DNA of 64,000 nt from Sphingomonas sp. HF-S4 (GTDB lineage: Bacteria > Pseudomonadota > Alphaproteobacteria > Sphingomonadales > Sphingomonadaceae): assembly GCF_032911445.1 (NCBI RefSeq), contig NZ_JAWJEJ010000002.1, positions 558,001-622,000 on the forward strand. The letters are read 5' to 3'. The notes under the pieces were generated by a model. The model searched no databases. It had not been told where the DNA came from and worked only from the letters and a program-made list of their open reading frames with translations. Made by a program: the position numbers and the translations under genes. Shown in pieces: positions 3,763 through 27,506 of this stretch. Each line of letters opens with the position of its first letter. Position 1 is the stretch's first letter.

Positions 3763-5424
3763 ATGCTGACGGCACTATCTATCCGTGACGTGGTGCTGAT
3801 CGAGGCGCTCGACCTTGATTTCGGCCAAGGGCTGGGCGTGCTGACTGGCGAGACCGGGGCGGGCAAGTCGATCCTGCTCGATGCCCTGGGGCTCGCGCTC
3901 GGCGCGCGCGGCGAGAGCGGGCTGGTGCGCCAGGGGGCGCAGCAGGCCGTGGTCACCGCAAGCTTCGATACGCCGGCGCAGGACGGCGCGATCGCCAGCC
4001 TCATGGCGCAGAACGGGCTCGATTGCGAACCCGGCGAGCCGCTGCTCGTCCGCCGCATCGTCAAGTCGGACGGCGGCAGCCGCGCCTTCGTCAACGACCA
4101 GCCGGCCTCGGCAGGCCTGCTCCGCGAGCTTGCCCCGCATCTCGTCGAGATCCACGGCCAGCACGACGATCGCGGGCTGCTCAATCCGCGGGGCCACCGC
4201 GTGCTGCTTGATACGTTCGGGCGGCTCGATGCCGGTCCGGTCGCGATCGCGCACCGCGCCTGGCGCGAGGCCGAGGATGCGCTGGCAGTGGCGCGTGCCG
4301 AGCAGGATGTCGCCGAGCGCGACCGCGAATGGCTCGACCATGCCGTCACCGAGCTGCGCGCGCTCGCCCCCGAGCCTGGCGAAGAAGAACGTCTCGCCGA
4401 GCGCCGTGCGACGATGCAGCGCGGCGAGAAGGTCGCCGGCGAGCTCCAGTCGGTCGCGCAATTGCTCGAAGGCTCCGAGGGCGGTCTGAGCCAGCTTCGC
4501 CAGGCCGCGCGCATCCTCGAGCGTATTGCCGACAGCCACGAATCGCTCGGCGAGGCGCTCGCCGCGATCGACCGCGCGATCACCGAAGGCGCCGAGGCGC
4601 AGCAACGGATCGATGCCGCCGCGGAGGCGCTCGCCTTCGATCCCGCCGCGCTCGAGTCCGACGAGGCGCGATTGTTCGAGTTGCGCGCGCTCGCGCGGAA
4701 GCATCGCGTCCAACCCGACGAATTGCCCGACCTGCTCGACGAACTCTCGGCCCGGCTCGATCGGGTGGCGAGCGGCGGGGCGGGGATCGCCCGGCTCGAA
4801 CTCGCGGTCGAGGAATCGCATCGCAGCTACCGCGACGCGGCGCGCACGCTGTCCAACGCGCGCACCCAGGCCGCGGCGCGGCTCGATGCCGCAGTCGAGA
4901 CCGAGCTCAAGCCGCTGAAGCTCGACGCTGCGCGCTTCCGCACCGTAGTCGAGCCACTGGACGAGGCGGCCTGGTCGGTCGCCGGGATGGACCGCGTCGA
5001 GTTCGAAGTATCGACCAATCCGGGCGCGCCGTTCGCGCCGCTTATCAAGATCGCCAGCGGCGGCGAATTGTCGCGCTTCATCCTGGCCTTGAAGGTCGCG
5101 CTCGCCGAAGAGGGCGGGGCGGGGACGCTGATCTTCGACGAGATCGATCGCGGCGTCGGCGGCGCAGTGGCGAGCGCGATCGGCGACCGGCTCGCCCGGC
5201 TCGCCTCGACCGCGCAGCTATTGGTCGTGACCCACAGCCCGCAGGTCGCAGCGCGCGGAAGCCAGCATTTGCTCATCGCCAAGCGCCACGACGGCCTCGT
5301 CACGCGCACCGGCGTCACGCCGCTCGACGCCGGCCAGCGCCGCGAGGAGATCGCGCGGATGCTCTCGGGCGCCGAGATCACGCCCGAGGCACGCGCGCAG
5401 GCCGAGCGACTGCTGGCGGCGTAA
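3763..5424 (+). CDS. recN: DNA repair ATPase RecN
   Basis: This 553-residue SMC-like protein acts in double-strand-break repair. The Walker A motif GETGAGKS is at residues 29-36. A long Ala/Glu/Arg-rich coiled-coil region occupies roughly residues 150-390. The C-terminal ABC signature ASGGELSRF is followed by Walker B LIFDEIDRGVGG and the QLLVVTHSPQVAA segment. An AGGGAG ribosome site precedes the ATG. No LexA box is evident in the 50-base gap from bamD, so it may be read through from that gene. A strong terminator follows. Confidence 0.94.
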   Translation: MLTALSIRDVVLIEALDLDFGQGLGVLTGETGAGKSILLDALGLALGARGESGLVRQGAQQAVVTASFDTPAQDGAIASLMAQNGLDCEPGEPLLVRRIVKSDGGSRAFVNDQPASAGLLRELAPHLVEIHGQHDDRGLLNPRGHRVLLDTFGRLDAGPVAIAHRAWREAEDALAVARAEQDVAERDREWLDHAVTELRALAPEPGEEERLAERRATMQRGEKVAGELQSVAQLLEGSEGGLSQLRQAARILERIADSHESLGEALAAIDRAITEGAEAQQRIDAAAEALAFDPAALESDEARLFELRALARKHRVQPDELPDLLDELSARLDRVASGGAGIARLELAVEESHRSYRDAARTLSNARTQAAARLDAAVETELKPLKLDAARFRTVVEPLDEAAWSVAGMDRVEFEVSTNPGAPFAPLIKIASGGELSRFILALKVALAEEGGAGTLIFDEIDRGVGGAVASAIGDRLARLASTAQLLVVTHSPQVAARGSQHLLIAKRHDGLVTRTGVTPLDAGQRREEIARMLSGAEITPEARAQAERLLAA

Positions 5425-5484
5425 CTTCCCGTCTCCCGACCCCTCCCGCAAGCGGAGGGGAGCGCTGAAATCAGGCGCGCAGCA

Positions 5485-5519
5485 AAAAGGCCGCGGTGGG
5501 ATGTCCACCGCGGCCTTTT
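5485..5519. terminator. Bidirectional rho-independent terminator
   Basis: AAAAGGCCGCGGTGG and CCACCGCGGCCTTTT form a perfect 15-base stem around a five-base loop. It has A and T runs on opposite sides, so it works in both directions. It separates the convergent recN and acnA genes. Confidence 0.92.
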
Positions 5520-5535
5520 CTGTCTCTCGCGCTGC

Positions 5536-8205
<2,670 letters not shown>

Positions 8206-8570
8206 GGGGCGCGGGGTCCTTTCCAATGTCCGGCCCGGGCGCTCGGGGGACGCTATCCTTATAGGACCGCGCGGGCGCGCCGGAGGGTGCTGCGAATGCG
8301 AAGATTCGTCGCGGGCCTTAGCGCGGGTTGGGGGGGAGGGGAAGGGGACGCAAGCCAAGCGCTCGCAGTGCGGTTTGTCCGACCGCGCGCCTCACCGCAT
8401 CGAGGCAAGATGTGCGTGGCGCTCGACCGGGGTGCCGCCGCCATGGTCTGCCGAACCAACCATTCAGCTTGTCATACCGCGCAGTTGCATGTGGCTTGAC
8501 CAATAATAGAATAAATCTTACCAATAAGATCGAACAGACCTGACAAACGGTTTGGCGATGGAGAGGTGGG
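8206..8570. other. Divergent intergenic region, acnA / TonB-dependent receptor
   Basis: No convincing gene is present in these 365 bases. The half next to acnA is G+C rich with a purine-rich tract. The half next to the receptor gene is unusually A+T rich for this genome and holds the putative promoter and repeats described separately. Confidence 0.6.
8496..8530 (+). promoter_or_regulatory. Putative promoter/operator of the TonB-dependent receptor
   Basis: TTGACC (8496-8501) resembles a -35 box. ACCAATAA occurs twice as an exact direct repeat, at 8499-8506 and 8520-8527, 21 bases apart or two helical turns. ATCTTA-CCAA-TAAGAT (8515-8530) is a perfect inverted repeat over the second copy. These lie 41-75 bases upstream of the receptor ATG in an A+T-rich patch, which suggests binding by a dedicated regulator. 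No -10 box is convincing, and the regulator is unknown. Confidence 0.4.
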
Positions 8571-11207
8571 ATGTCGGCACATTGGTGGTTGAGCACGGTT
8601 GCGATTCTTGCGGTGGCGCCGGCACAGGCGCAGCAAGTGCCGCCGGAGCAGGAAGCGGTCGCAGCGCCCGCGGATCAGGCCGGTGCATCGCCCGACATCG
8701 TCGTTGTCGGCACGCGCGCCAGCGACCGCTCCGCCCAGGACACCAAGCGCGAATCCGATCAGATCGTCGACTCGGTGGTCGCCGAGGACATCGGCGCGCT
8801 CCCTGACTTCAACGTCGCCGAAGCGCTGCAGCGAGTGCCGGGCATCGCGCTGGACCGCAACGAATTCACCGGCGAGGGATCGGGGGTGAGCGTCCGCGGG
8901 CTCAACCAGATCACGACTTCGCTTGCCGGCCGATCGATCTTCAGCGGCGTGGGACGCTCGCTCAACCTGGGCGAGATCCCGGCCGGACTGGTCGGCCGGG
9001 TGGATGTCTACAAGAGCCCGCAAGCGGACCAGATCGAAGCGGGGCTGGGCGGCACCGTCGACGTCAAGCTTCGCAGCCCGGCAGACCTCAAGAAGTTCAC
9101 GGCCTCGGCCACGGCGCGCGGCATCTATCGGCGGCTGAGCGACAGCTTCAATCCGAGCTTCTCGGCGCTGGTCGGCAACAATTGGGATGTCGGCGGGGGC
9201 AAGCTGGGCGTGCTGGTCTCCGGCATCTACGATCGCCGAAATTTCCGGACGGACCGCCTGGCAGTGGATGCCTTTGCCGACCGGCGCAACCTGGTGGACC
9301 GCAACGGCGACGGCGCCGCCACCAACAACCCGGCCGACAGCATCTATGTGCCCACGACGCTGACCACGCGCTATTCGCTGGGCGAGTTCGAGCGCTGGGC
9401 GCTGGGCGGGCGCATCCAGTACAAGGAAGCGGGAAGCTACGAATTCTACGTCGACGGGATCTACAACAGCTACAAGGGCACGCAGGACCATTCGTTCATC
9501 GCGGCGCGCCTGAACCAGACGCTCTACGGCGCGCGTGCCGCGCTCAATTCCTATACGGTCCGGCCGGACAATCTGACGTTCGAATCGGGGGTTTTCCGCA
9601 ACGTCCCGTTCCAGTCGACGACCTATATCCAGGACGAGAAGAATAGCGTCTGGCAAGCCGCGGCGGGGTTCAAGGTGTATGCGGGCAAGCTGCAGGCAGC
9701 GGGCGACATCAGCCTGCTGCGCAGCACTAAGAACGAAATGCGCCGCGACCTGACCACGGGCGGAATTGCGCCGCTTTTCGCGATGGACCTGCGCCCCGAA
9801 ACGCCGTCCTACGATTATCAGGGCATCGACCTGCTGACGCCGGGGGCATACCGCCCGGATCGGATCTCGACTTCCAACTATCCCAACGAAGGCGAGGAGC
9901 GCGCGGCGCGGCTCGACATCACCGCCAATCTCGACCTGCCGGTGCTCCAGGCGCTGCAATGGGGCGTGCGCTTCACGACGCGAACGGCCGACCGGATCGG
10001 CTTCGACGAAGGCGTCAGCCTGATCGGGCGGACGCCGACGACGCCGCTGGCGGACACGCTGACCGCGACGCCCGACGACCTGTTCGCCAACCGATTCGAC
10101 TTGATCGACACCACTTGGCTGCGGCCCAACCCGGCGGTGGTGCGCGAATTTGCCGGGCTGCTCCGGGCCTATGGGTTGCCGGCGGACTTCCCCGCCATCG
10201 AGCCGCTGCTCGCTTACTCGTTCCGCGAGCGGACGCAGGCGGCATATGTGATGGCCAAGATCCGGCAGGAAATCGGGACGATGCGGCTGACCGGAAATGC
10301 CGGCGTCCGCCTGGTCAACACGCGGCAGAACGCCAATGGCTTCCGCAGCGCGCCGACGACGGGCACGTTCGAGCCGATCGACCTGGACCGCAAGTACAGC
10401 GCCATATTGCCGAGCATCAACCTGGCGCTGCGCGTCACCCCCGATCTGGTGGTGCGTGCTGCCTATTCGGAAGTTGTTTCCAAGCCGAGCTTCCTCGACC
10501 TGTCGCCGACCCGCTCGCTGAATTTCGACACGTTCGAGGGTTCGGGCGGCAATCCCGAACTCCAGCCCTATCAGGCCAAGCAGTTCGACGCCGCGGTCGA
10601 ATGGTATTTCGGCCGTCCCGGCTTCGTCTATCTCGGCTATTTCAAGAAGGACATCGACGGCTATTACCAGCGGGTGTCGTTGCCCGAGGTGATCGGCGGG
10701 CAGACCTTCCTGATCGAGCAGCTGATCAATGCCGACGCCGCCAAGGTGGACGGCTGGGAGCTGGGCTATCAGCAGCAATATGACTTCCTGCCGGGGCTGT
10801 TGCGCGGGCTCGGCGCGCGGTTCAGCTTCACGCACATCAATTCGAACCGGTATAATTCGACGCTCCGGCGCAACGAACCGCTCTCGGGCCTGTCGCCGAA
10901 CCTGTACAACGGCACGGTGACCTATGAGCTTGGCGGGTTCCGCGCCAGGGTCGCCTACAACTGGCGCGAAAGCTATCCGATCAACCTCAATCCCGGCGGC
11001 GCGCTCAACCTGCCCCAAACGCGCAATTCGTTCGGCATCTGGGACGCAAGCGCGACCTATCAGCTGCGCAAGAATCTGGCGCTGTTCGTCGACGTTTCGA
11101 ATATCACCAACCAGCGCGGCACCGAGGTCTTCACCGTTGCCGAGCGCCCGCGCTCGTTCTTTCTCAGCGACCAGACCTTCGGGATCGGCATCCGCGCGAA
11201 CTTCTGA
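8571..11207 (+). CDS. TonB-dependent outer-membrane receptor
   Basis: This 878-residue protein has a signal peptide (cut after PAQA, about residue 20) and a TonB-box-like PDIVVVGTR. The plug domain follows at about residues 45-165, with NVAEALQRVPGIALDR and the SVRGLN motif, and then a long beta-barrel ending FGIGIRANF with the terminal Phe typical of BAM substrates. The plug resembles the large sphingomonad group of receptors associated with sugars and peptides; the ligand cannot be read from sequence. The GAGAGGTGGG ribosome site fixes the start. It is convergent with the radical SAM peptide maturase, which raises the possibility that the modified peptide is its ligand, but adjacency is the only evidence. 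Confidence 0.88.
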   Translation: MSAHWWLSTVAILAVAPAQAQQVPPEQEAVAAPADQAGASPDIVVVGTRASDRSAQDTKRESDQIVDSVVAEDIGALPDFNVAEALQRVPGIALDRNEFTGEGSGVSVRGLNQITTSLAGRSIFSGVGRSLNLGEIPAGLVGRVDVYKSPQADQIEAGLGGTVDVKLRSPADLKKFTASATARGIYRRLSDSFNPSFSALVGNNWDVGGGKLGVLVSGIYDRRNFRTDRLAVDAFADRRNLVDRNGDGAATNNPADSIYVPTTLTTRYSLGEFERWALGGRIQYKEAGSYEFYVDGIYNSYKGTQDHSFIAARLNQTLYGARAALNSYTVRPDNLTFESGVFRNVPFQSTTYIQDEKNSVWQAAAGFKVYAGKLQAAGDISLLRSTKNEMRRDLTTGGIAPLFAMDLRPETPSYDYQGIDLLTPGAYRPDRISTSNYPNEGEERAARLDITANLDLPVLQALQWGVRFTTRTADRIGFDEGVSLIGRTPTTPLADTLTATPDDLFANRFDLIDTTWLRPNPAVVREFAGLLRAYGLPADFPAIEPLLAYSFRERTQAAYVMAKIRQEIGTMRLTGNAGVRLVNTRQNANGFRSAPTTGTFEPIDLDRKYSAILPSINLALRVTPDLVVRAAYSEVVSKPSFLDLSPTRSLNFDTFEGSGGNPELQPYQAKQFDAAVEWYFGRPGFVYLGYFKKDIDGYYQRVSLPEVIGGQTFLIEQLINADAAKVDGWELGYQQQYDFLPGLLRGLGARFSFTHINSNRYNSTLRRNEPLSGLSPNLYNGTVTYELGGFRARVAYNWRESYPINLNPGGALNLPQTRNSFGIWDASATYQLRKNLALFVDVSNITNQRGTEVFTVAERPRSFFLSDQTFGIGIRANF

Positions 11208-11369
11208 GCGGCGATCGCCCGCCAAGCCGTTCGCGCGTGCCGGCAAGCAGTATCCGTGCGACCGATTGATGGCCCTCCGTCGCGCGTGTCGCGGCCCGGG
11301 CTGGCGCGCCGCTGCATGCCCCGAACGACGGGGGATGGTCGCGGCGCCCGGTGCGATCGCCCCGGTCGA

Positions 11370-12893
11370 TCAGTCGCGCAACTTGGTCAGGATGAAGTCG
11401 AGCGCGGTCGGATCCTCCTCGAGGATCTCGCAATACATCGACAGCATCTCGCGGCGCCCCGCGCGCAAATTCTCGCAATTCCAGTAGCGCTTGATCGAAT
11501 CGAATTCGTCGCCCGATTTGGTGTGCGCGAAGCAGAGGCTGCAGAGCCGAACATTGTAGCACGATCGGCACGGCGCATAGTTCATGTCGTTGAACCGCTC
11601 GAAGATGCCGATCGTCCGCTCGGGATCGACGCCGCGATCGACATCGCCAAGCGACATGAGGTCGGTGCCCTCGGTCTTCTCGCACGTCTCGAAGCCGCCG
11701 CGCGCGTTGACGAAAATGCGGTCCTGCCCCGGCGTGCAGCAGCCGTGCCCGGCCAACTCGTCCTCGAAGCCGGTGCTGCTCACGCGACGATGGATCTTCT
11801 GCATGTCGCGGATGAACTGGTAATAGACGAAGTTGTAGCCCTTGTCCTTGAAGCTCCGGTCGTCGAAGGCCCGCTCCAGGCATCCCTGCTTGAACTTCGC
11901 CCGCATCTCCGACCAGCCGGTGGCCACCGCGCGCTCGGCAAGCGGCCCTTCGAAGCTGGGCGGGTCGACGGTCGAGGTCGTGATCTGGACCGGGAACTGG
12001 GTGAAGAACGCGTCGAGCACCTTGAAGTCGATCGGGGGGGTGAGCACCGCGTTGATCGAGACGCGCTCGCGGAAATAAGCGGGATGGCGCGCCTCGAGCG
12101 CGCGCAGATTGCCGACGACGCGCTCGAACGTGCCCAGCCCCTTCGCCGTGACGCGCGAGCGATCGTGCACTTCCTTCGGCCCGTCCATGCTGACCAGCAG
12201 GTCGACATCATATTCGGCGAAGAAGTCCATGATTTCGGGGGTCCACAGGACCGCATTGCTGGTGACGTTGTACTTGCGCCGATAGTTGGGAAACAGCTCC
12301 GCGAAATACGCCGCGGTCTGGCGCATCAGCTTGAAGTTGGTCAGCGGCTCGCCGCCATACCAGGCGAGCGTGCGGAACTTGTGCGGCGACCCTTCCGAAT
12401 GGGACGCCATGTAGTCGATTGCCTTCTTGGCCACCTCCCACGTCATCCGACCGTTATTGTGGACGCGCTTGTCCTCGTATGCGCCGCCATAGACGCAATA
12501 GGAGCACCGGATGTTGCACGCCTCGGTGACGTTCAGCACCACGCTCACGACTTCGTCGCGGCAGTTGCGGACGTGCTCCTTGTCGACGCGCGAGATCACC
12601 CGTGCGGGTGCCTGGGGGACGAGTATCCCGGCGTAGCGGCGCAGCTTGTCGAGAAACGCGTCGGCGGCGCGCTGCTCGCCGGAAGCATCCTCGGGCAGCG
12701 GCTCGCCGCGATAGAAAGCGAGCGCGCGGGCATTGACCATTGCATCGGTACGCACGATCGCATTGGTCGGCGCGTCGTAGATGTAATGGTGTCGGGCGGT
12801 TTCGAAGGTCACGAAGGGGACGAGCCCGCGCGCGACCTGCGCGACGAACTCGTCCTTCGTACCCGGATCGCGTGCGGCGACCTCAGCTGCCAT
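11370..12893 (-). CDS. Radical SAM/SPASM peptide maturase
   Basis: This 507-residue enzyme likely modifies the small peptide encoded just upstream. The radical SAM motif CNIRCSYC places the cluster ligands at Cys126, Cys130 and Cys133, and GGEP is at 180-183. The C-terminal SPASM domain carries Cys385/386, Gly399, Cys404, Cys442, Cys445, Cys451, Cys454 and Cys473, fitting two auxiliary [4Fe-4S] clusters. The N-terminal stretch FVTFETARHHYIYDAPTNAI resembles the leading domain of SPASM maturases that act on RiPP precursors. The ATG at 12893 sits inside the 3' end of the peptide gene (11-base overlap), implying translational coupling. The cross-link type (sactipeptide, ranthipeptide, cyclophane or other) cannot be decided. 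I do not recognise a named subfamily. Confidence 0.88.
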   Translation of the reverse strand: MAAEVAARDPGTKDEFVAQVARGLVPFVTFETARHHYIYDAPTNAIVRTDAMVNARALAFYRGEPLPEDASGEQRAADAFLDKLRRYAGILVPQAPARVISRVDKEHVRNCRDEVVSVVLNVTEACNIRCSYCVYGGAYEDKRVHNNGRMTWEVAKKAIDYMASHSEGSPHKFRTLAWYGGEPLTNFKLMRQTAAYFAELFPNYRRKYNVTSNAVLWTPEIMDFFAEYDVDLLVSMDGPKEVHDRSRVTAKGLGTFERVVGNLRALEARHPAYFRERVSINAVLTPPIDFKVLDAFFTQFPVQITTSTVDPPSFEGPLAERAVATGWSEMRAKFKQGCLERAFDDRSFKDKGYNFVYYQFIRDMQKIHRRVSSTGFEDELAGHGCCTPGQDRIFVNARGGFETCEKTEGTDLMSLGDVDRGVDPERTIGIFERFNDMNYAPCRSCYNVRLCSLCFAHTKSGDEFDSIKRYWNCENLRAGRREMLSMYCEILEEDPTALDFILTKLRD

Positions 12894-13086
12894 AGCGATA
12901 GCCGGCGATGCCCGCTGCGGTCGTCCACTCGGTTTCGATATAGCAGTCGCAATTGCTGTCGCAGGACGACGTCGCGCGAACGCCGCCCGACGCCGACTCC
13001 AGGCCACTGCCGGGCTTCTTGAAGTTGCGCGTGAAGACGATCGCTTCGTCGACTTCCTGCTTGTCCGAATCGTCGATGCCCGCCAT
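12883..13086 (-). CDS. Putative RiPP precursor peptide, 67 residues
   Basis: This short gene lies immediately upstream of, and overlaps, the radical SAM/SPASM gene. The peptide has an acidic, helix-prone N-terminal part (MAGIDDSDKQEVDEAIVFTR), a basic NFKKPGSG segment, a Gly/Ser linker, and a Cys-rich C-terminal part with Cys42, Cys46 and Cys48 (SCDSNCDCY), then Trp54 and a YRYGS tail. This leader/core layout, together with the overlapping maturase, is typical of RiPPs. The ATG at 13086 has a good GAGGGAG ribosome site; a GTG 30 bases further upstream is less likely. No cleavage site or exporter is recognisable. Precursor status is an inference from context and composition. Confidence 0.7.
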   Translation of the reverse strand: MAGIDDSDKQEVDEAIVFTRNFKKPGSGLESASGGVRATSSCDSNCDCYIETEWTTAAGIAGYRYGS

Positions 13087-13146
13087 GAGATGCTCTCCCT
13101 CTTTGCTTGATTGCACTGTACAGGGACGCGAGGCGGAAGACTGTCA

Positions 13147-13177
13147 CCTCATCGATATGGGTGATTCGCCTCATCGA
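13147..13177 (-). promoter_or_regulatory. Direct repeat, putative activator site upstream of RiPP genes
   Basis: CCTCATCGA occurs at 13147-13155 and again at 13169-13177, 22 bases apart (about two helical turns), 61-91 bases upstream of the precursor start. Immediately upstream on the minus strand is an A+T-rich tract (TTGAAGTATTTAATAAATAAT, 20 of its bases A/T-biased) that may contain the promoter. The regulator is unknown. Confidence 0.35.
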
Positions 13178-13235
13178 GGATCAGAACATTATTTATTAAA
13201 TACTTCAAGGCGCAGTTGCATCGTGCCCTAAACAT

Positions 13236-13267
13236 GAATTCCTGCGCGCATGGTGGAACAGGAATTC
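13236..13267. repeat. Inverted repeat upstream of the RiPP locus
   Basis: GAATTCCTG (13236-13244) and CAGGAATTC (13259-13267) form a perfect 9-base inverted repeat with a 14-base spacer. No T-run follows, so it is more likely a protein-binding site or an incidental hairpin than a terminator. Confidence 0.4.
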
Positions 13268-13465
13268 CGCACTCCGAGCGCATGTCGTGACGTTGCATGC
13301 AACGATATTGATGCTGCCACGAAACGGACTTTACCATAGGTGCAAATTATTGTGCCGTGATATTGCCGGCTCGCATGCCTTTTGCCGGCGGCAAGCTGGG
13401 TCTGCATCTTTCTTGTCCGGCGCCGGGACGGTCTTCGCCTTGGTGGCCGTCGTCCAATAGGCGTT

Positions 13466-13708
13466 TCAGCTGATCTGCCGAGCGATATCCGCGAGCAGGA
13501 TGCGTGCGACGGGGCGATGCCGGTCGTCTTCGATCTCGAGCGTGCCGTGGACCGGGCCGGGCGCGCGACGGAGATGGTTGTGGAGGAGCGCGCGGGCGCG
13601 GCCCTGGCCTTCGGCGAGCGCGGCGGCGAGGCTGGGGAGGTCGCGGGGACTGTCGTCGAAGCGAGGCGCAGTGCCTTGGGTGCGCAACTGGAAGAAGAAC
13701 TGGGGCAT
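13466..13708 (-). CDS. DUF6894 family protein
   Basis: This 80-residue protein starts MPQFFFQLRTQG, has an Asp/Leu-rich middle (DLPSLAAALAEGQGRARALL) and ends with LEIEDDRHRPVARILLADIA. That pattern (MPRFFFHxxD, a central helix, then LEIxDxxGxVV) defines the small alphaproteobacterial DUF6894 family. Function is unknown; it is probably cytoplasmic. It lies upstream of the peptide/maturase pair on the same strand, but the 379-base gap argues against a single operon. Confidence 0.7.
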   Translation of the reverse strand: MPQFFFQLRTQGTAPRFDDSPRDLPSLAAALAEGQGRARALLHNHLRRAPGPVHGTLEIEDDRHRPVARILLADIARQIS

Positions 13709-13973
13709 GTGCGTGAAATGCGCGGCGGGCCGTCGGGTTGCGGAGAATGATCTGGATCAGTGCGATTTTCGGGACGGGACCGCAGGCGCAATCGACCAGG
13801 GCTGCGCACACCTAGTTGGTGTTTCGATAGTGCCTATCTGGTTTTTTATTTATCATGAGGAAAAGCCGTTCTGGCACGGAAAGTTCGGCATGTGAACGAG
13901 TGCGCAGGTGCGCGCGGGCATTGCAGGCGCTGGCCCTCGACCCTAGGGTCGGCGCGGATCGGGGAGGGCTGGG

Positions 13974-15005
13974 ATGCGGCGATGGCTGGGCGTGCTGGCA
14001 GTGCTGGGGAGCGCAGGGGTGGCGCGGGCGCAGGACTTGCCGCCCGCTGCGCCAACGCCGGTGCCCGAATGCCGCCGGGTAAGCGAGGCGGCGTTCCTAC
14101 GCATCGACCCGCAGGCGGCGGCGCGGCTGGCGGAGATCGGGCTCGATCGCCGCGCGGTATTCGAGCGGATGGCCGAGACGTCGATCCCCGAGACGATGGG
14201 ATGCTGGGCGATGCCGGTGGGCGATTTCGACGGGCAGCTGGTGTCGGTCGGGATGAGCCAGTGGAATTACGGGACCGGGAGCCTCCAGCCGGTGCTGCGC
14301 GCGTGGAAGAAGGGCGTCGGCAGGTTCGGGCGGGCCCGGAAGGCGCTGGCGCCGGTGTACGGCAAGTTGCTGTTCTCGCGCGATTGCCTGGCGGTGCCCG
14401 TGCGCGACAAGTGCCGAAGGGGGATCCGGGCGGCGCATGGGGCGGACGGGAAGCTGAATGCCACGATGCTCGCTGAGCTGACGGCGATCTTCGAGAGCGA
14501 CGCGATGCTCCAGGTGCAGACCGACGCCTATGTCGCGTTGCTGATGGAGGTGCGGGGGGATCTGCTGCGGGTGTTCGCGGGGCAGCCGATCACGATGCGC
14601 AAGGTGCGCTGGGCGATCGATACCAAGGTCCAGCAGGGGTTCTTCCTGGCCGACGCGGACCTGGCGCGGCTGCGGGGGAAATTGGCAGCGATGCCAGAAA
14701 GCGAGCGCTGGGATCGCCTGCGTGCGGTGTTCGACTGGTATGAGGCGCTCGGGCGGAGCGTGGACCAGGACGGGGTGGCGCGCGACTGGGCGTGGAACGT
14801 CGCGCAGTGGCGGTGCATGATCGACAAGGGGAGGATCGATCCCGAACAATATGAGATGCTGCACCTGACGTTCCTGCGCAGCCGGACCGCGGTGGGGAAT
14901 AGCGGGCGGTGGCAGGCGCTGACCTTCTCGCGGCGCGGCAAGATCGTGCTCGGCATCGGCAGCGTGAGCGGCAAGCGCGACGGGGATTGCCTCGGCGTGG
15001 GTTAA
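13974..15005 (+). CDS. Secreted lysozyme-like or chitosanase-like hypothetical protein
   Basis: This 343-residue protein has a Sec signal (RRWLGVLAVLGSAGVARAQ). Its central segment, VGDFDGQLVSVGMSQWNYG followed by GSLQPVL, resembles the GNFDGQxxSFGxLQWNxGxGTLQPLL pattern seen in lysozyme-like and peptidoglycan-degrading proteins. Five or more Cys residues suggest disulfides in the periplasm or outside the cell. The rest of the protein is helical and Arg rich. The ATG follows a GGGGAGGG ribosome site. Enzymatic function is inferred only from the short motif, so it could be a non-catalytic relative. Confidence 0.5.
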   Translation: MRRWLGVLAVLGSAGVARAQDLPPAAPTPVPECRRVSEAAFLRIDPQAAARLAEIGLDRRAVFERMAETSIPETMGCWAMPVGDFDGQLVSVGMSQWNYGTGSLQPVLRAWKKGVGRFGRARKALAPVYGKLLFSRDCLAVPVRDKCRRGIRAAHGADGKLNATMLAELTAIFESDAMLQVQTDAYVALLMEVRGDLLRVFAGQPITMRKVRWAIDTKVQQGFFLADADLARLRGKLAAMPESERWDRLRAVFDWYEALGRSVDQDGVARDWAWNVAQWRCMIDKGRIDPEQYEMLHLTFLRSRTAVGNSGRWQALTFSRRGKIVLGIGSVSGKRDGDCLGVG

Positions 15006-15692: not shown

Positions 15693-15709
15693 ACCCGTAA
15701 CGAGGTGTG

Positions 15710-16669
15710 ATGTCGGATATTCTGCGGGATCTGGGACCGGTTTTCCTGGCAAGTCGGCTCAAGCGGTTGGGCGAGCGGATGCAGGCGGGGGCGGCGCGAG
15801 TCACCGGCGCGGCGGGGCTGCCCGTCCAGCCCTCGCACATGGCGCTGCTCGCCGCGCTGGAAGGGCGGGAGAGAACGATCGGCGAGCTGGTCCACGCGGT
15901 GGGGATCAGCCAGCCGGGCGTGACGCGGGGGATCGGCCAGCTCGTCGACCTGGGGATGGTCGAGTCCCGGCAGGGTGCGGACCAGCGTCAGCGGACGATA
16001 TCGCTCACGCCCGCCGGGAACCGGACGCTGGCGCAGGCCAAGCTGCACGTCTGGCCGCATGTCGAAGCCGCCGTACATGCGCTGTGCGGCGACCGGCTGG
16101 CGGCGTTCGTCGACCAGATCGACAGGCTGGAGACCGCGCTGGCGGCCACGCCGCTCGACCTGCTGGCGGCGCGCGCGGACACCCGGGTGCTCGCGATCCG
16201 TGACTATGACGACACGCTGGCCAAGGATTTCCACGACATCAACGCCGAGTGGATCGACGCGATGTTCGCGCTCGAGGACACCGACCGCGAGGTGCTGGAG
16301 AACCCGCGGAAGACGATCCTCGACCCCGGCGGCGCGATCCTGTTCGTCGAGGCGCGCGGGCTCGGCGTGGTGGGCACGTGCGCGCTCCAGAAGACGGCGG
16401 GCGCGGGCGTCGAACTGACCAAGATGGCGGTGCGGCAATCCGCGCGTGGATTGAAGGCCGGCGAATTCCTGCTGTCGGCGATACTCGCGCGTGCGGCAAC
16501 GATGCCCGCCGATCCACTCTATCTGCTCACCAACGCCAAATGCGCCGCCGCCATCCACCTCTACGAAAAGCTCGGTTTCGTGCACGATGCCGAGATCATG
16601 ACGCGATACGGTGCGCGCTATGCGCGGTGCGACGTGGCGATGCGCTATCGCAAGCCGACAAGCGATTAG
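15710..16669 (+). CDS. MarR-family regulator fused to a GNAT acetyltransferase domain
   Basis: This 319-residue two-domain protein has a winged-helix MarR domain at residues 1-145 (MALLAALEGRERTIGELVHA, ISQPGVTRGIGQLVDLGMVE, ISLTPAGNRTL). A GNAT N-acetyltransferase domain occupies about 165-315 (ILFVEARGLGVVGTCALQ, LTKMAVRQSARGLKAGEFLL for acetyl-CoA binding, AAIHLYEKLGFVHD near the end). Such fusions are known in proteobacteria, but the substrates are mostly unknown. The ATG at 15710 follows GAGG; a GTG one codon earlier is possible. An A+T-rich dyad just upstream suggests autoregulation. Confidence 0.85.
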   Translation: MSDILRDLGPVFLASRLKRLGERMQAGAARVTGAAGLPVQPSHMALLAALEGRERTIGELVHAVGISQPGVTRGIGQLVDLGMVESRQGADQRQRTISLTPAGNRTLAQAKLHVWPHVEAAVHALCGDRLAAFVDQIDRLETALAATPLDLLAARADTRVLAIRDYDDTLAKDFHDINAEWIDAMFALEDTDREVLENPRKTILDPGGAILFVEARGLGVVGTCALQKTAGAGVELTKMAVRQSARGLKAGEFLLSAILARAATMPADPLYLLTNAKCAAAIHLYEKLGFVHDAEIMTRYGARYARCDVAMRYRKPTSD

Positions 16670-20082: not shown

Positions 20083-21642
20083 CTAGAGCGGCTCCCCGGC
20101 CGCTTGGGCGCGGACTTCGCGCGAAGCCTCGGCCGCCGGGACCAGGCGGAGCGCGGCGATCGCGGCGCCCACTGCCAGGGGGAGGGTGGCGAGGAGCGAG
20201 AGGATGCCGGTCGACAGGCTGCCGGTGAGATCGGCGACGCGGCCCGCCAGATACGGGCCGAGCGCGAGGCCGATCAGCGTGGTGCCGATGAAGAAGGCGG
20301 CGGTGGCGGTGCCGCGCATGCGGGGGAGGACGAGGTCCTGCGTCGCGGCCGCGGCGGCGCCTAATGCGCAGCTCGCGAAGACCTGGGTAATCGGGAGCAT
20401 CGCGTAGAAGAGCGACTTGTCGGCGGTGGTGAAGGCGATCACCAGCGGCGGGACCGGCGCGAGGCTGCCGAACAGCACGACCAGGATGCGGCCCGAGGCC
20501 CAGCGGCGGCGCAGGCGATCGGCGGCGATCCCGCCGAGCGTCACGCCAAGGAAGCCGCCGAGGATCGCGGGGCCGCCGATCCACAGCCCCGCCTCGCGGC
20601 TGGTGACGCCGAAGACGTGCGCGGCATAGCTGGGGGCGAGCCCGGCGACGGCATAGGACAGGAAGGCATTGAGGCCGTAGGCGAGGACGACCGCGAGGAA
20701 GGCGGGCGTGCCGAGGATCAGTTTGAAGGTGGGCGCGTCGCGGTGGCGCAGCGCCGCCGACCAGCTGTACACGGCGTAGACGCCGATGCCGACCGCGAGC
20801 CATTGCGGGACCGGCTCGCCGAGGCGGAGCAACGCGGCGATCGCACCGGCGACCAATGCGAGGACGGCGAGGTTGCGGAGCAGCGCGGTCGCGCCGTTGC
20901 GCGCGGCACCGATCAGCGTGAGCGGCGGGAGGATGGTCAGCAGGTCTTCGAGGAAACTCTTGAACGGTGCAGGGTGCGGCGGCGCCTTGAGACCCTCGGA
21001 GAGCCCGCGCATCGGCTCGCGCAAGGTGAGCACCCACAAAGCGAGGACGAGGCCCGGCAGGCCGACCGCCATGAACGCCGCCTGCCAGCCGACCAGCCCG
21101 AACGGGCCGCCGCCAGGATAAGCGGCGTTCCACCAGTCGACGATTGCGCCGCCGAGGAACAGCGAGAAGCCGCCGCCGAAATAGATGCCCCCCGAATAGA
21201 TGGCGAGCGCGGTGGCGCGCTGGCGGCGGGGAAACCAGTCCGAGATCAGCGAATAGGCCGAAGGGCCGGCGCTCGCCTCGCCCACCCCGACGCCGATACG
21301 CGCCGCGGCGAGGTGCAGGCCGTTGCGCGAGAGGCCGGAGAGCGCGGTCATCGTCGACCAGAGCGCGAGCCCGATCGTCATCAGCCGCACGCGGTGCCAG
21401 CTGTCGGCGAGGCGGCCCAAGGGAATCCCGAAAAGCGCGTAGAACACGCCGAACGCGGTGCCGTAGAGAAAGCCGATATCGGCATGACTGAGCCCCAGAT
21501 CGGCGCGGATGTGCGGGGCGAGGATCGTCAGGATCTGGCGATCGATGAAATTCAGCGCATAGACGAGGAACAGGACGGTGAGGACATACCAAGCATAGGG
21601 ACCGGCCTTGCGATCGGCCACCGGCGCGTGCGTGCTCGCCAT
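20083..21642 (-). CDS. Major facilitator superfamily transporter
   Basis: This 519-residue inner-membrane protein has about 12 hydrophobic segments. It carries the N-terminal MFS signature NFIDRQILTILAPHIRADLG and GIPLGRLADSWHRVRLMTIG between helices 2 and 3. GVGVGEASAGPSAYSLISDWFPRRQRATAL matches the spinster-like group common in sphingomonads. A long central loop (around residues 215-270) includes a hydrophobic insertion. The substrate is unknown. The gene is convergent with rnk, with three bases between the stops. Confidence 0.85.
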   Translation of the reverse strand: MASTHAPVADRKAGPYAWYVLTVLFLVYALNFIDRQILTILAPHIRADLGLSHADIGFLYGTAFGVFYALFGIPLGRLADSWHRVRLMTIGLALWSTMTALSGLSRNGLHLAAARIGVGVGEASAGPSAYSLISDWFPRRQRATALAIYSGGIYFGGGFSLFLGGAIVDWWNAAYPGGGPFGLVGWQAAFMAVGLPGLVLALWVLTLREPMRGLSEGLKAPPHPAPFKSFLEDLLTILPPLTLIGAARNGATALLRNLAVLALVAGAIAALLRLGEPVPQWLAVGIGVYAVYSWSAALRHRDAPTFKLILGTPAFLAVVLAYGLNAFLSYAVAGLAPSYAAHVFGVTSREAGLWIGGPAILGGFLGVTLGGIAADRLRRRWASGRILVVLFGSLAPVPPLVIAFTTADKSLFYAMLPITQVFASCALGAAAAATQDLVLPRMRGTATAAFFIGTTLIGLALGPYLAGRVADLTGSLSTGILSLLATLPLAVGAAIAALRLVPAAEASREVRAQAAGEPL

Positions 21643-22508: not shown

Positions 22509-23819
22509 TTAGCGCTTCAATATGTCGAGCGCGGCGGCGGTCATCGCTTCTGTGGCGGTGCCGATCACCGATTCGGCCTCGGGCGCCCAGAACGGGCTGT
22601 GGAGCGAGGGAAGGGTTTCCTTGCCTGCCTGCGCGGCGTCCCACTTCGCCCTCGGCACACCGCCGACCCAAAAGATCATGCTCTGGATCGTCTTGTCGGC
22701 GAGGTAGAAGCGGCCGAAATCCTCGCCGCCCATCACCGCGGGGGTCTCGACGACGCGGTCCTTCCCGAAGCGGGCGGTCCACAAGGTATTCAGGCGGCCG
22801 GTGAGCGGCTCGGTGTTGAAAGTCGAGGGGGTGCCTTCGTTGCGGACGGTGACGACGGGCATGCGATCCTCGGGCATTCCTGCGGCGACTGCCTCGCCCT
22901 TGGCGATACGCGCGATGCCGTCGAGCAGCTTTTTCCGGACTTCGGGCGTGTAGCTGCGCACAGTGAGCAGCATCGTCGCTTCCTTGGGGATGATGTTGTG
23001 CGTCGCGCCGCCCTGGAAGCTGCCGACGGTGACCACGGCCGAATCCTGCGGGTCGATCTCGCGGCTGACCAGCGTCTGGAGCGTGGTGACGATCCGCGCG
23101 GCGAGGACGATCGGGTCGCGCGTGGTGTGCGGATAGGCGCCGTGCCCGCCGACCCCGGGCACCTTGATATCGACCGAATCGACATTGGCGAGCGCATAGC
23201 CCGAGCGGACGCCGATAGTGCCCGCGGGGAGCGTCGCGGCGTCGTGGAAGGCCAATGCGAATTGGGGCTTGGGGAAGCGCGTGAACAGCCCGTCCTCGAG
23301 CATCATGCGGGCGCCCATGCCGCGTTCCTCGGCAGGCTGGGCAATCATCACCAGCGTGCCCTTCCACCGGGCCTTCATCGCCGCCAGGTTGCGCAGCGTG
23401 CCGATCCATGAGGCCATGTGGGTGTCGTGGCCGCAAGCGTGCATCACCCCGGTCTCCTGGCCCTCGTCGGTGGTGGCGCGAACCTTGGAGGCGAAGGGAA
23501 GGCCGGTGTCCTCGGCGACCGGCAGGCCGTCCATGTCGGCGCGGATCAGCAGGACGGGGCCGGGACCGTTCTCCAGCACGGCGACGACTCCGGTGCCGCC
23601 GACCTTCTCGGTAACGGTGAACCCGGCCTTTCGCGCCTCGGCGGCCAGCTTGGCGGCGGTCTTGACCTCATGGAGGCTGAGCTCGGGATTGGCGTGGAAG
23701 TCGCGGTAGAATTCGAGGAGCTGCGGGAGCGCTGCTTGGGTGGCATCGCGGACCGGGTCGGCGGCGCTGGCGGGGGCGGCGAGGGTCATGGCGAGGGCTG
23801 CCGTGAGGAGCGTTTGCAT
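22509..23819 (-). CDS. M20 family amidohydrolase, secreted
   Basis: This 436-residue zinc metallohydrolase of the M20D/hippurate-hydrolase type has a Sec signal (MQTLLTAALAMTLAAPASAA). The catalytic landmarks are visible: RADMDGLPVAEDTGLPFAS, the MHACGHDTHMA motif with Cys and His metal ligands, AQPAEERGMGARMM with the Glu pair, and VMGGEDFGRF near the end. The dimerisation insert lies around residues 195-310 (DIKVPGVGGHGAYPHTTRDP). It probably hydrolyses N-acyl amino acids or peptides in the periplasm. The exact substrate is unknown. Confidence 0.9.
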   Translation of the reverse strand: MQTLLTAALAMTLAAPASAADPVRDATQAALPQLLEFYRDFHANPELSLHEVKTAAKLAAEARKAGFTVTEKVGGTGVVAVLENGPGPVLLIRADMDGLPVAEDTGLPFASKVRATTDEGQETGVMHACGHDTHMASWIGTLRNLAAMKARWKGTLVMIAQPAEERGMGARMMLEDGLFTRFPKPQFALAFHDAATLPAGTIGVRSGYALANVDSVDIKVPGVGGHGAYPHTTRDPIVLAARIVTTLQTLVSREIDPQDSAVVTVGSFQGGATHNIIPKEATMLLTVRSYTPEVRKKLLDGIARIAKGEAVAAGMPEDRMPVVTVRNEGTPSTFNTEPLTGRLNTLWTARFGKDRVVETPAVMGGEDFGRFYLADKTIQSMIFWVGGVPRAKWDAAQAGKETLPSLHSPFWAPEAESVIGTATEAMTAAALDILKR

Positions 23820-23921: not shown

Positions 23922-26795
23922 TCAGCCCCCCGCCTTGGCATCGGGCCGGGGCAGCACCACCATCGACCAGTCGCGGTCCGGGCGGAGATATTTCTGCGCG
24001 AGTGCCTGGACCTCGACCGGTGTGGTCAGCGCGACATCACGCGCGAGCGTATCGACCGAGCTGATCCGCGCCGGATCGTAGCTGCCGCCCTCGACCAGCC
24101 GCATCCAGAACATGTTGCCGCTCGATTGGCGCAGCAGCGTCTGCTTGATCGGTGCCAGCGCGCGGTTGAGCTCGTCGGCGTCGACCGGCTTGGCCACCAA
24201 GTCCGCAGCGATCTCGCGGGCGAGGGTGAAGAAGAAGTCGGTCTTGTCGGGCGCGACCATGCCGAGCGCGATCAGCTTGCCGCCGGCGCTGAGGCCTAGC
24301 GGCCACTGGCTGGCGACGTTGGGCGAATAGCTGACGCCGGCACGGCTGCGCAGTTGATCGATCATCCGATCGCGGAAGATCGCGGCGAGCACTTCGAGCT
24401 TGCGGCTCTCGGTGATGCCGGCGCTGCCCGCGCCCGTGGGCCATGCGATTACCGCCGCGGCCTGATCGGGCTTGCCGCTATGGGTGCGCACCACCGGCTT
24501 GTCGACATGCGCGGGGAAGGTGATCGGCGGCACCGGCGCGGTGCTCGCCGCGCGCGGTTTCATCGCGCCGAAGGTGGCGGCGACCGCCTGGACCGTCGCG
24601 TCCGAATCCATGTCGCCGAACACTTCGACTTCGATCGGGCCGCTGGCGAGCAGTGGCTCCCAGAGCTTGCGGAAGCTCGCCGGCGTCGTCGCCTCGATCG
24701 TCTCGCGCTCGGGGATGCCCCAGCGCGGATCGCCCGAATGGAGCAGCTTTTCGAGATCGCGGCCGAGCACCGCATCAGGCGACGAATCGAGCCCCGCATA
24801 GCCCGAGAGCACCGCGGTCTTGGCGCGGGTGATCGGGTTCGGATCCCAGGCTGGCGCGGTGAGCTTGGCGGCGAACAGGCGAAGCTGATCGGGCAGGTCG
24901 GCCTTGTTGGTCTGGCCGCCCAGGCGGAAGGCATCGGCCGCGATGTCGAAATCGAAGCCCATCTGGCGATTGCCGATCAGCGCGTCGAGCTCTTCCTGGC
25001 CGAACTTGCCGATGCCGCTGGCGAGCAGCGCCATCTCGCCGGCCCAGCCTGGGCTAGGCTGCGCTGGCAACGCGTTCAGCCCGCCGCCAAAGCGGACATT
25101 GACATAGACCTTGCCGACTTCGCTCGAATCCTTGCGCATCAGCAGGTTGACGCCGTTGGCGAAGACGACCTTCTCGATCTCCAGCTCGGGGAGCACCGGC
25201 GTGCGGCTGACCACCTTGCCCGGCGCGCCGAGCTTGGGGAACTGGGCGAAGCTGACATTGCCGAGCGCCTTGCGCTTGCCGACGGTGCCGACCGCGTCCG
25301 AGGCGAGCGCGGCGGTGACCTTGGTCACCAGCTGGGGATCGGGCGTGTGGGTATTGACGAGCGCGCGCACCGCAGTGCCTTCGAACACCCGCTTGGCGGC
25401 CGCCTGGACCGTCGCGGGAGTGAACATCCTTGCCTTCACCGCCGTCTCGAAGATGTCGAGCGAAGCCTGGGGCGTGGTCACGGTTTCGTTGATATCGACG
25501 GCCTCGACCAGATCGTCGGCGAGCTTCATCCCCGATTCGACCGGCGCGGTGGAGATGCGCTGCTGCATCGACGAGCGGATCTCGGCGAGCTCGCGATCGA
25601 TCTCGGCCTGGGTCGGCGCGGCGTTCTGCGCGTCGGCGATGACCCCGCGCACGTCGCGCAGCGCGGTCTCCCAATCGGCACCGACGGGCATGACGTTGAC
25701 CGTGGTGATGTTGGCCGAGCGACCGACGTCGCTGAGATCGGCGCCGGCCCCTACGAAGCTGCCGCCCGAGCGCGCGCGGGTTTCGAGGCGGCGGTTGATG
25801 ATGCGGATCGCGACGAGGTCGATCATCCGCTTCTGGTTGAAGATCACCGTGTCGCTGAACACCGTCCAGGGGCGGACGATCGTCATCATCGCGAGCGGCG
25901 GCACCGCGGGCTCGACGATGCTGGCGGCGACGGGATTGCCTTCGGCGACGGGCTTGCCGAAATCGGGGCTCTTGGGCGCGGCGCCCTTGCCCTGCCATGT
26001 GCCGAAATGCTTCTGGACCATCGCTTCGAGCGTGGCGGGATCGACGTCGCCGATCGCGATCACCACGGCGCGATCGGGGCGATACCAGCGATTGTGGAAG
26101 GCGAGCACGCTCTCGGGCGTGGCGCCGGTGAGCGCCGCGGTGGTGCCGATCGGCTTGCGGTTGGCGAGCGGCTGGCCGGCGAACATCAGCCCGAGCATAG
26201 CATCCTGCATCCGCTCCTGCGCGCCGGGCTGTTCGCGCGCCTCGGCGAGCACGACCGGGCGCTCGGCGTCGAGCGATGCCTGGGTGATCGCGGGGGCGGC
26301 CATCATGCCGGCGAGGATCTTGAAGCTTTCGTCGATCCCGGCCGGCGTCGCGGTGGGCAGATCGAGCTTGTAGACGGTCTGGGTAAAGGTGGTGCTGGCG
26401 TTCGAATCCGAGCCGAAGGTCACGCCGAGCCGCTGCCAGATCCGCTTCGATTCGCCATCCGGAACGAAGGTCGAGCCGCGGAACGAGAGATGCTCGAGCA
26501 AGTGCGCGAAGCCGCGCTCGCTTTCCTGCTCCATCAACGAACCCGCATCGATCCGCACGCGGACCGAGACCTGGCCGGGGGGCACGCCGTTCTTGCGCAC
26601 CGCATAGCGCAGGCCGTTGGAGAGCCGCCCGAACTTCCAGGCTTCGTCATGGACAAGGTCGCTGCCCTTGTAGAGCCAGGGATCCTCCGCCGTCTGGACC
26701 GGGCGCGGCGCCGTCTGCGCGTAGACCGGGGCGACCGGGACGAGCGTGGAGAGAGCAATGGAGGCGAGGAGCGGCGACCGCAGGAAACGAAGCAT
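23922..26795 (-). CDS. M16 family zinc peptidase (pitrilysin/PqqL-like)
   Basis: This 957-residue secreted protease (signal MLRFLRSPLLASIALSTLVP) has two M16 halves. The first half holds the inverted zinc motif HLLEH (His98, Glu101, His102), with SFRGSTF following. The second half (around 500-950) lacks the zinc motif, as usual for PqqL-like proteins, and contains GGGLNALPAQPSPGWAGEMA and RSRAGVSYSP. Such proteins degrade small peptides in the periplasm. It is transcribed towards the M20 gene and follows rnhB on the same strand with a 69-base gap. Confidence 0.88.
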   Translation of the reverse strand: MLRFLRSPLLASIALSTLVPVAPVYAQTAPRPVQTAEDPWLYKGSDLVHDEAWKFGRLSNGLRYAVRKNGVPPGQVSVRVRIDAGSLMEQESERGFAHLLEHLSFRGSTFVPDGESKRIWQRLGVTFGSDSNASTTFTQTVYKLDLPTATPAGIDESFKILAGMMAAPAITQASLDAERPVVLAEAREQPGAQERMQDAMLGLMFAGQPLANRKPIGTTAALTGATPESVLAFHNRWYRPDRAVVIAIGDVDPATLEAMVQKHFGTWQGKGAAPKSPDFGKPVAEGNPVAASIVEPAVPPLAMMTIVRPWTVFSDTVIFNQKRMIDLVAIRIINRRLETRARSGGSFVGAGADLSDVGRSANITTVNVMPVGADWETALRDVRGVIADAQNAAPTQAEIDRELAEIRSSMQQRISTAPVESGMKLADDLVEAVDINETVTTPQASLDIFETAVKARMFTPATVQAAAKRVFEGTAVRALVNTHTPDPQLVTKVTAALASDAVGTVGKRKALGNVSFAQFPKLGAPGKVVSRTPVLPELEIEKVVFANGVNLLMRKDSSEVGKVYVNVRFGGGLNALPAQPSPGWAGEMALLASGIGKFGQEELDALIGNRQMGFDFDIAADAFRLGGQTNKADLPDQLRLFAAKLTAPAWDPNPITRAKTAVLSGYAGLDSSPDAVLGRDLEKLLHSGDPRWGIPERETIEATTPASFRKLWEPLLASGPIEVEVFGDMDSDATVQAVAATFGAMKPRAASTAPVPPITFPAHVDKPVVRTHSGKPDQAAAVIAWPTGAGSAGITESRKLEVLAAIFRDRMIDQLRSRAGVSYSPNVASQWPLGLSAGGKLIALGMVAPDKTDFFFTLAREIAADLVAKPVDADELNRALAPIKQTLLRQSSGNMFWMRLVEGGSYDPARISSVDTLARDVALTTPVEVQALAQKYLRPDRDWSMVVLPRPDAKAGG

Positions 26796-26864: not shown

Positions 26865-27506
26865 TTATTCGGCGGCGATACGCGGCCCGAAATCGAAATG
26901 CGCCTGTGCGACGGGGGCGAAGCTGCGGCGGTGATGCGGCGTGGGGCCGAGCGTGCGCAGCGCTTCCTGGTGGACCCGGGCGGCATAGCCCTTGTTGCTC
27001 GCCCAGCCATAGCCCGGGTGGAGCGCGTCGAGCTCGGCCATCATGCAGTCGCGGCGATGCTTGGCGACGATCGAGGCGGCGGCGATCGACAGGCACAAGG
27101 CGTCGCCGCCGATCACGGCGTGGCTCTGATGCGCCCAATCGGGGCAGCGATTGCCGTCGACCAGCACGAAGGCGGGGACGAAGCCGAGCGCCTCGACTGC
27201 GCGCGTCATCGCTAGCATCGTCGCCCAGAGGATGTTGAGGCTGTCGATTTCCTCGACGCTGGCGATGCCGAGGCCGACCTTGGCGCATTTCAGCAGCTCC
27301 TCGCACAGCCGCTCGCGCTTGGCGGCGGTGAGCGCCTTCGAATCGTCGATGCCCTCGGGAATGCCCTTGGGATCGAGCACAACCGCGGCGGCGACGACCG
27401 GGCCGGCGAGCGGGCCCCGGCCCGCCTCGTCGACGCCGGCGACTAGCCCCTTGTGGAGGCGCTGGTATTTCCGCTCGAACTTGAGGTGCGGCCCGGACTT
27501 AAGCAT
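26865..27506 (-). CDS. rnhB: Ribonuclease HII
   Basis: This 213-residue enzyme removes ribonucleotides from DNA. The metal-binding acids are visible in [15 protein letters not shown] (Asp26, Glu27), in AFVLVDGNR (Asp) and in the C-terminal [13 protein letters not shown] region. [14 protein letters not shown] is also diagnostic. The ATG at 27506 lies 8 bases inside the 3' end of the upstream thiD-VOC gene, so the two are co-translated. Confidence 0.94.

Follow-up and report, generated by a model that had tools for sequence, protein, structure and literature searches.

A cysteine-block peptide gene overlapping a radical SAM/SPASM maturase gene in Sphingomonas sp. HF-S4: a candidate two-gene RiPP cassette

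The radical SAM peptide systems that form thioethers and group with CcpM, RumMC and lachnocin have their best-known members in Firmicutes, where they are often antimicrobial and accompanied by an exporter and a protease, and the records met in our searches agree with this focus on Firmicutes. In this study, we analysed a 64,000-nt stretch of the genome of the alphaproteobacterium Sphingomonas sp. HF-S4 (contig NZ_JAWJEJ010000002.1; the whole stretch is called the window below), in which a small cysteine-containing peptide gene overlaps the gene for a radical S-adenosylmethionine (SAM) enzyme of the SPASM type. Our data make it fairly probable that these two genes form a cassette of the CcpM/RumMC/lachnocin kind for a ribosomally synthesized and post-translationally modified peptide (RiPP), located in a variable segment of the genome, with thioether bridges running from the three cysteines of the peptide into its tail.

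The nearest described family is CcpM/CLI_3235 (TIGR04068 with TIGR04065, Firmicutes), which gave the best match to the window maturase, aligned over most of its length. In the CcpM locus L001, as in the window, a small cysteine-rich precursor gene lies directly ahead of the maturase gene. However, in CcpM precursors C-x-C and C-x2-C motifs follow one another over a long stretch, whereas the window precursor has three cysteines, and the maturase gene of L001 is followed by a TIGR04066 gene and by one for a subtilisin-like protease (the latter below its model cut-off), whereas the window pair has a TonB-dependent receptor gene and a DUF6894 gene as neighbours. No TIGR04066 match was obtained in the one genome searched for the window, nor in any of the 14 control genomes. 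The SacP23 cluster of Paenibacillus is described as combining a TIGR04068 maturase with transporter, protease, TIGR04066 and TIGR04069 genes (PMC10731318), none of which directly adjoins the window pair. In the RumMC/ruminococcin C system, the donors lie ahead of the acceptors and a C-x3-C pair is followed by a cysteine-free tail, an arrangement resembling that of the window; unlike the window precursor, ruminococcin C has two donor blocks, and no transporter genes lie beside the window pair. The precursor of the Apre_1838 type (TIGR04067) likewise has a cysteine block followed by a tail. In the lachnocin system (NF038170/NF038169), a C-x-C-x-C block precedes W-T-A-F-G-A-G-Y-M-G-Q-Y-L, which by eye resembles W54-T-T-A-A-G-I-A-G-Y of the window precursor. 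The lachnocin precursor at L153:2705-2845 ends CHCGCDGKPWTAFGAGYMGQYL and, again by eye, has a similar layout (cysteine block, W-T-A, G-Y near the end). BLASTP produced no alignment between the two precursors, and the window peptide had no NF038169 match at E ≤ 1, whereas the L153 peptide scores 89 bits with that model and has an ABC transporter gene and an S8 peptidase gene beside it in the lachnocin record.

The peptide gene runs on the minus strand from an ATG at 13086 to a stop codon ending at 12883 and encodes 67 amino acids (MAGIDDSDKQEVDEAIVFTRNFKKPGSGLESASGGVRATSSCDSNCDCYIETEWTTAAGIAGYRYGS); its ATG is preceded by a purine-rich stretch, AGAGGGAGAG. The cysteines make up a single block, C42-x3-C46-D-C48, and the tail (residues 49-67), which includes Trp54, is cysteine-free and ends G-I-A-G-Y-R-Y-G-S. 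The leader probably comprises about residues 1-41. Re-reading of the sequence bore out what the initial annotation, made from the letters alone, had given for the peptide and maturase genes: the coordinates, the strand, the residues Cys42, Cys46, Cys48 and Trp54 and the aromatic tail end (GYRYGS). Codon scoring of the part outside the overlap, with five window genes as reference (receptor, maturase, superoxide dismutase, MarR-GNAT and GH43), gave +29.1 for the peptide frame against -48.3 to -9.0 for the other five frames, so a chance open reading frame (ORF) is unlikely. The precursor matched TIGR04065 weakly, at 15.8 bits, below the cut-off of 26; the precursor beside the CcpM enzyme of L001 (22.4 bits) also falls under it. 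The peptide and maturase genes overlap by 11 bases (ATGGCAGCTGA), which suggests that they are carried on one transcript and that their translation is coupled. In the literature listings searched, outside which most subscription journals lie, we saw the precursor family nowhere described, and the two genes look like a genuine RiPP pair with a precursor family for which we found no name.

The maturase gene, also on the minus strand, extends from its ATG at 12893 to position 11370, where its stop codon ends, and encodes 507 amino acids. Its radical SAM core (PF04055, 43.7 bits against a cut-off of 29.5) contains the motif C126-x3-C130-x2-C133, all three cysteines of which are invariant in 14 aligned sequences. 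The C-terminal part contains C386, C404, C442, C445, C451, C454 and C473, with the spacings C-x12-G-x4-C and C-x2-C-x5-C-x2-C; the first six are invariant in all 14 sequences and C473 is kept in at least 90%. The Pfam scan of the maturase listed no SPASM profile match, and we take the spacing from C386 to C473 to be the auxiliary-cluster motif of SPASM proteins. An N-terminal domain resembling a RiPP recognition element (RRE) is predicted at about residues 25-95 (modelled strands 27-49 and helices 51-88); in the model it aligns with the N-terminal part of CteB, the nearest solved structure by sequence and fold, and it may bind the leader.

A second pair of this design was found in G1154 (contig G1154:C23, apparently Phaeovulum vinaykumarii), which encodes a 476-amino-acid maturase 32% identical to that of the window. 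We took 16 kb around this gene and listed the ORFs of positions 4500-12500. Directly upstream of the maturase gene and on the same strand lies a gene for a 76-amino-acid peptide (MNDRARRDAELQDEDAQRLLEIAISNLNRTQRAGADADSLRARCVYDCDCTVLGGADPVPPLGVASGVIGYGAGSL), with a strong ribosome-binding stretch before it. The two precursors have in common C-x3-C-D-C, the tail end G-x2-G-Y-x2-G-S and their rough length, and were aligned by BLASTP at an E value of 0.002; a database search with both peptides finds P0034, a 76-amino-acid hypothetical protein of P. vinaykumarii. In a control set of 2251 ORFs of 40-160 amino acids (59 stretches, 423,833 bases, some stretches overlapping), C-x3-C-D-C occurred in two, exactly the window and Phaeovulum peptides, and C-x3-C-x-C in nine lines, one ORF being counted twice. 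The peptide and enzyme genes thus adjoin in both neighbourhoods examined of this group, in two distantly related genomes. The initial annotation had proposed looking for such a core beside related maturases and had held that homologues always lacking the peptide would speak against the pair; in the nearest readable relative, a precursor of the same design is in place. The Phaeovulum pair resembles that of the window in gene order, strand, cysteine block and GxxGYxxGS tail, and also in having no adjoining exporter operon, but there is no window-type receptor gene beside it and its two genes are 104 bases apart (with the ATG chosen) rather than overlapping. Its neighbours encode peptidyl-tRNA hydrolase, amidase, YitT, SMR, TypA and solute-binding proteins. 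More distant relatives in Firmicutes (L001, L006, L068 and L153) have cysteine-rich precursors of other families alongside.

Scoring of the maturase against curated family models ranked CcpM first (TIGR04068, 290.2 bits, cut-off 500) and RumMC second (NF035951, 233.8 bits, cut-off 720); the lachnocin model (NF038170, cut-off 550) gave 186.3 bits, and lower scores were given by the models for QhpD (145 bits), PapB (NF047865, 139.7 bits, cut-off 340) and SCIFF (TIGR03974, 110.8 bits, cut-off 425), and by those for FxsB, XyeB, GrrM, YhhB and AmcB (49-75 bits). A maximum-likelihood tree was built from 41 maturases (midpoint root, PapB absent). In this tree, L001 is labelled CcpM by its score of 515, above the TIGR04068 cut-off, L006 and P0022 score highest with RumMC but under its cut-off, L153 and L154 come from records annotated with a lachnocin maturase and huazacin peptides, and P0029 is called SCIFF by its source. 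The window maturase and its ten nearest relatives form a clade of 11 rows (support 100/100), which joins the Phaeovulum enzyme and P0011 with a support of 96/98. The clade falls within a set of 32 rows in which the CcpM-, RumMC-, lachnocin- and huazacin-type enzymes are also found. A branch with 100/100 support separates these 32 rows from nine others, including QhpD and the SCIFF-named P0029.

Given these data, it is very probable that the maturase installs rings in the peptide, and we infer the following course. Precursor and maturase would be translated together, and the N-terminal domain of the enzyme would hold the leader. The SAM-bound cluster would yield a 5'-deoxyadenosyl radical, which would take hydrogen from residues of the peptide tail; C42, C46 and C48, held by an auxiliary cluster, would then attack those positions, with 2 Da lost per bridge. 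All three donors stand ahead of a tail that lacks cysteine and has the conserved end G-x2-G-Y-x2-G-S. Bridges directed forward into this tail are therefore most likely; they would form nested rings from sulfur to alpha carbon and so a hairpin like that of ruminococcin C. A single donor block followed by 19 cysteine-free residues fits this arrangement. Bridges to alpha carbons are reported for ruminococcin C and for thuricin Z/huazacin, those of RumC2 being given as Cys22-Asn35, Cys24-Glu31, Cys41-Arg61 and Cys45-Arg53 (PMC8172795; PMC8188230). Since no dedicated protease or exporter was found, the leader may be removed by a general protease, and the product may remain in the cell or exit by a general route. 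For the type of bond, we regard sactipeptide-like chemistry as reasonably probable, a ranthipeptide as the less likely choice and any other chemistry as having a small chance.

Several observations weigh against a CcpM/RumMC/lachnocin-like thioether cassette. Of the 65 family models matched, 25 were listed, and the maturase stays below the curated cut-off of every one of these, so that family membership does not tell the bond type. The tree program warned of long branches, one of them at the split between the 32 and nine rows, and of unequal composition, and this tree, which contains no PapB sequence, does not resolve how the CcpM, RumMC and lachnocin groups branch relative to one another. The donor block is acidic (C-D, C-D-C, Y-I-E-T-E), which fits Cys-Asp/Glu chemistry. 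The association of peptide and enzyme rests on two cases, the window and Phaeovulum. When 29 enzymes from the same order (L008-L036; 26-37% identical to the window maturase, most matching in the core only) were screened for a cysteine-block peptide encoded within 1.5 kb on their flanks, three ORFs were obtained, all with unlikely codon make-up, and none was convincing; among these loci, L008 (26% identical) has no such peptide in its 1.5-kb flanks, and no cysteine-block precursor is evident beside L070 and L071. Finally, the Pfam-scanned ORFs, a subset of those in the window, include no ABC or C39-type peptide exporter, no S8-type protease and no other exporter or protease dedicated to the pair. 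This last result agrees with the initial annotation, which had seen neither an exporter nor a protease nearby; other peptidases and a major facilitator superfamily (MFS) transporter lie away from the pair.

The alternative that survives best is a ranthipeptide, in which the bonds of the cysteines would go to the beta or gamma carbon of acidic residues close to the donor block (D43, D47, E51 and E53), as in the reactions of PapB and QhpD. Asp or Glu residues surround the cysteines in both precursors, and the PapB (140 bits) and QhpD (145 bits) models do match the maturase, in which RRE-like, radical SAM and SPASM parts follow one another as they do in the enzymes of the PapB/freyrasin and CteB/thermocellin systems. 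CteB, its nearest solved relative, is counted as a ranthipeptide maturase (PMC11002830), and PapB is reported to join Cys to Asp at separations of zero to six residues and also to accept Glu (PMC9413430). However, the PapB precursor has CX3D motifs, whereas neither the window nor the Phaeovulum precursor contains CX3D or CX3E; of the acidic positions in the core, the two peptides share none but the D of C-D-C, whereas they have the tail end in common; and the tree separates the window group from QhpD and from a SCIFF maturase. SCIFF precursors, moreover, have six cysteines against three here. We consider a ranthipeptide unlikely, though it is the main rival reading. A role in quinohemoprotein amine dehydrogenase (QHNDH) formation was rejected: no QHNDH subunit was found among the scanned window ORFs, in contrast to the Paracoccus operon L038.

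It is much less likely that the enzyme modifies aromatic residues (W54, Y49, Y63 or Y65), for instance to a cyclophane, or makes no bonds to cysteine at all, the cysteines binding metal or staying free. The tail does contain Trp and Tyr, Y63 is kept in the Phaeovulum peptide and cyclophane maturases are remote relatives of the window enzyme. Trp54, by contrast, has no counterpart in the Phaeovulum peptide, whereas all three cysteines have one, and the five cyclophane models listed score 49-75 bits against 290 for CcpM, so a cyclophane is not favoured. The proposal of the initial annotation thus stands as to a radical SAM/SPASM maturase with its precursor and a product that is probably cross-linked through cysteine, while its cyclophane option and its link to the receptor lose ground.

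The receptor could belong to the system under any of these chemistries, importing or sensing the mature peptide, as had been suggested when its position was first, and correctly, described as adjoining and convergent (162 bases lie between the receptor and maturase stops). Besides this position, it lies in the same 5.65-kb variable segment as the pair. It is, however, a member of the large generic subfamily TIGR01782, and its orthologues in the congeners G874, G833 and G309 (89%, 80% and 78% amino-acid identity) each occupy a different place with different neighbours, and the 18 kb read around each of them contain no maturase; none of these three congeners is among the six genomes that gave a match when the genus was searched for the maturase. 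There is likewise no window-like receptor in the 16 kb around the Phaeovulum pair. Since the orthologues sit elsewhere without a maturase, the common variable segment is the sole tie found between receptor and pair. The suggested uptake or signalling link is accordingly not borne out, the receptor is probably a mere neighbour outside the system, and we give its membership very little credence. As for the idea that the small ORF is no real gene and that the true substrate of the maturase is something else, a protein search with the window peptide alone did return nothing but itself, but the codon score of its frame and the 76-amino-acid hypothetical protein of the same design adjoining the Phaeovulum maturase make it scarcely credible.

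Relatives of the maturase are rare. A protein search over 5.8 billion proteins, with scoring restricted to the 7997 candidates that had most words in common with the query, yielded 32 proteins at E ≤ 1e-20, ten of them at 48-66% identity and the remainder at 37% or less; two of the ten (P0001-P0010) carry organism names, Rhodovulum imhoffii and Hoeflea sp. Among 295 congeneric genomes, a full-length relative was found in G000 alone, five more matching over the core region only (31-37% identity); the absence of the maturase from congeners is judged by this protein search, since a DNA search of the genus scored only two candidates per genome. Some match occurred in 55 of 396 genomes sampled from the order, a close one in G000 only, the longest other (G015) being 26% identical. 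With P0006 as query, one of 385 genomes of a class sample matched at E ≤ 1e-40 (G000) and one of 394 of a Rhodobacterales family sample at E ≤ 1e-60 (G1154). A scan of genome contigs gave four distant maturase relatives, from which L001 was taken. On this sequence evidence, the pair appears to belong to a rare alphaproteobacterial branch of a peptide-stapling system. Phage and plasmid origins were considered and rejected: a scan of viral contigs gave 147 relatives, none of the 80 loci kept exceeding 36% identity, and each of the plasmid matches listed (20 of 28 records) was either QhpD or a radical SAM protein from Firmicutes, with identities below 60% throughout.

DNA homology to four relatives matching at both flanks (L062, L063, L065 and L066) ends at 8344-8348 and resumes at 13998-14118; L064 and L067 show homology at the second flank only. 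In G865 (L065), the two flank matches are 485 bases apart and the site is nearly empty, and in the other three the site holds genes unmatched by the window proteins queried. Because flank homology breaks at both ends, the receptor, the pair and the DUF6894 gene are placed in a replaceable segment, which is bounded by an aconitase gene (named by Pfam) and a gene for a 343-amino-acid protein. Among the site fillers of the three relatives are ORFs resembling, by eye, phage small-terminase genes, and the G874 site has an ORF resembling, by eye, another DUF6894 protein. The features of the locus and the transporter and peptidase genes of the window are listed in Table 1.

Table 1. Features of the candidate RiPP locus and other transporter and peptidase genes in the window
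Feature	Coordinates	Strand	Position	Basis
Candidate RiPP precursor peptide	12883..13086	minus		codon score, similar peptide beside Phaeovulum maturase, weak TIGR04065 match
Radical SAM/SPASM peptide maturase, 507 aa	11370..12893	minus		
Precursor-stop/maturase-start overlap, 11 bases	12883..12893	minus		sequence
TonB-dependent receptor	8571..11207	plus		TIGR01782 601 bits, PF00593, PF07715
Small DUF6894 protein	13466-13708		upstream of pair	domain scan
Variable segment, about 5.65 kb (receptor, maturase, precursor, small DUF6894 protein)	8347..13996	.		homology breaks
MFS transporter	20083-21642		far from pair	Pfam
M20	22509-23819		far from pair	Pfam
M16	23922-26795		far from pair	Pfam
Putative zinc peptidase	51632-52510		far from pair	Pfam
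M3	55427-57589		far from pair	Pfam

The stretch between the convergent stops does not fold unusually (z -0.75), we found no site resembling a terminator or a promoter in 11150-13980, and Rfam at gathering scores gave a single match in the window, a tRNA. The 343-amino-acid protein (13974-15005, plus strand) has no Pfam match over the cut-off; its gene and that of a Cu/Zn superoxide dismutase occur together at the DNA level in several congeners. A protein encoded at 15707-16669 (plus strand) combines an N-terminal MarR-type DNA-binding domain with a C-terminal GNAT acetyltransferase domain, and a 385-amino-acid ORF at 27499-28656 (minus strand) is an apparent fusion of phosphomethylpyrimidine kinase (12-247) and glyoxalase (265-367).

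In a wider reading, which we offer tentatively and which on balance is somewhat doubtful, cassettes of this kind may represent a RiPP family of their own in Alphaproteobacteria. Such a cassette would be minimal, with two genes that travel from genome to genome within variable segments, and it would turn a single C-x3-C-D-C block into a nested thioether hairpin with three bridges. It would have no protease or exporter of its own, its product acting inside the producer or leaving by a general route. A rare alphaproteobacterial branch that has a new precursor design and comprises only a peptide and its maturase would provide a compact, easily expressed new substrate for stapling chemistry, and would be a test case for the role of such peptides in the absence of an export system.
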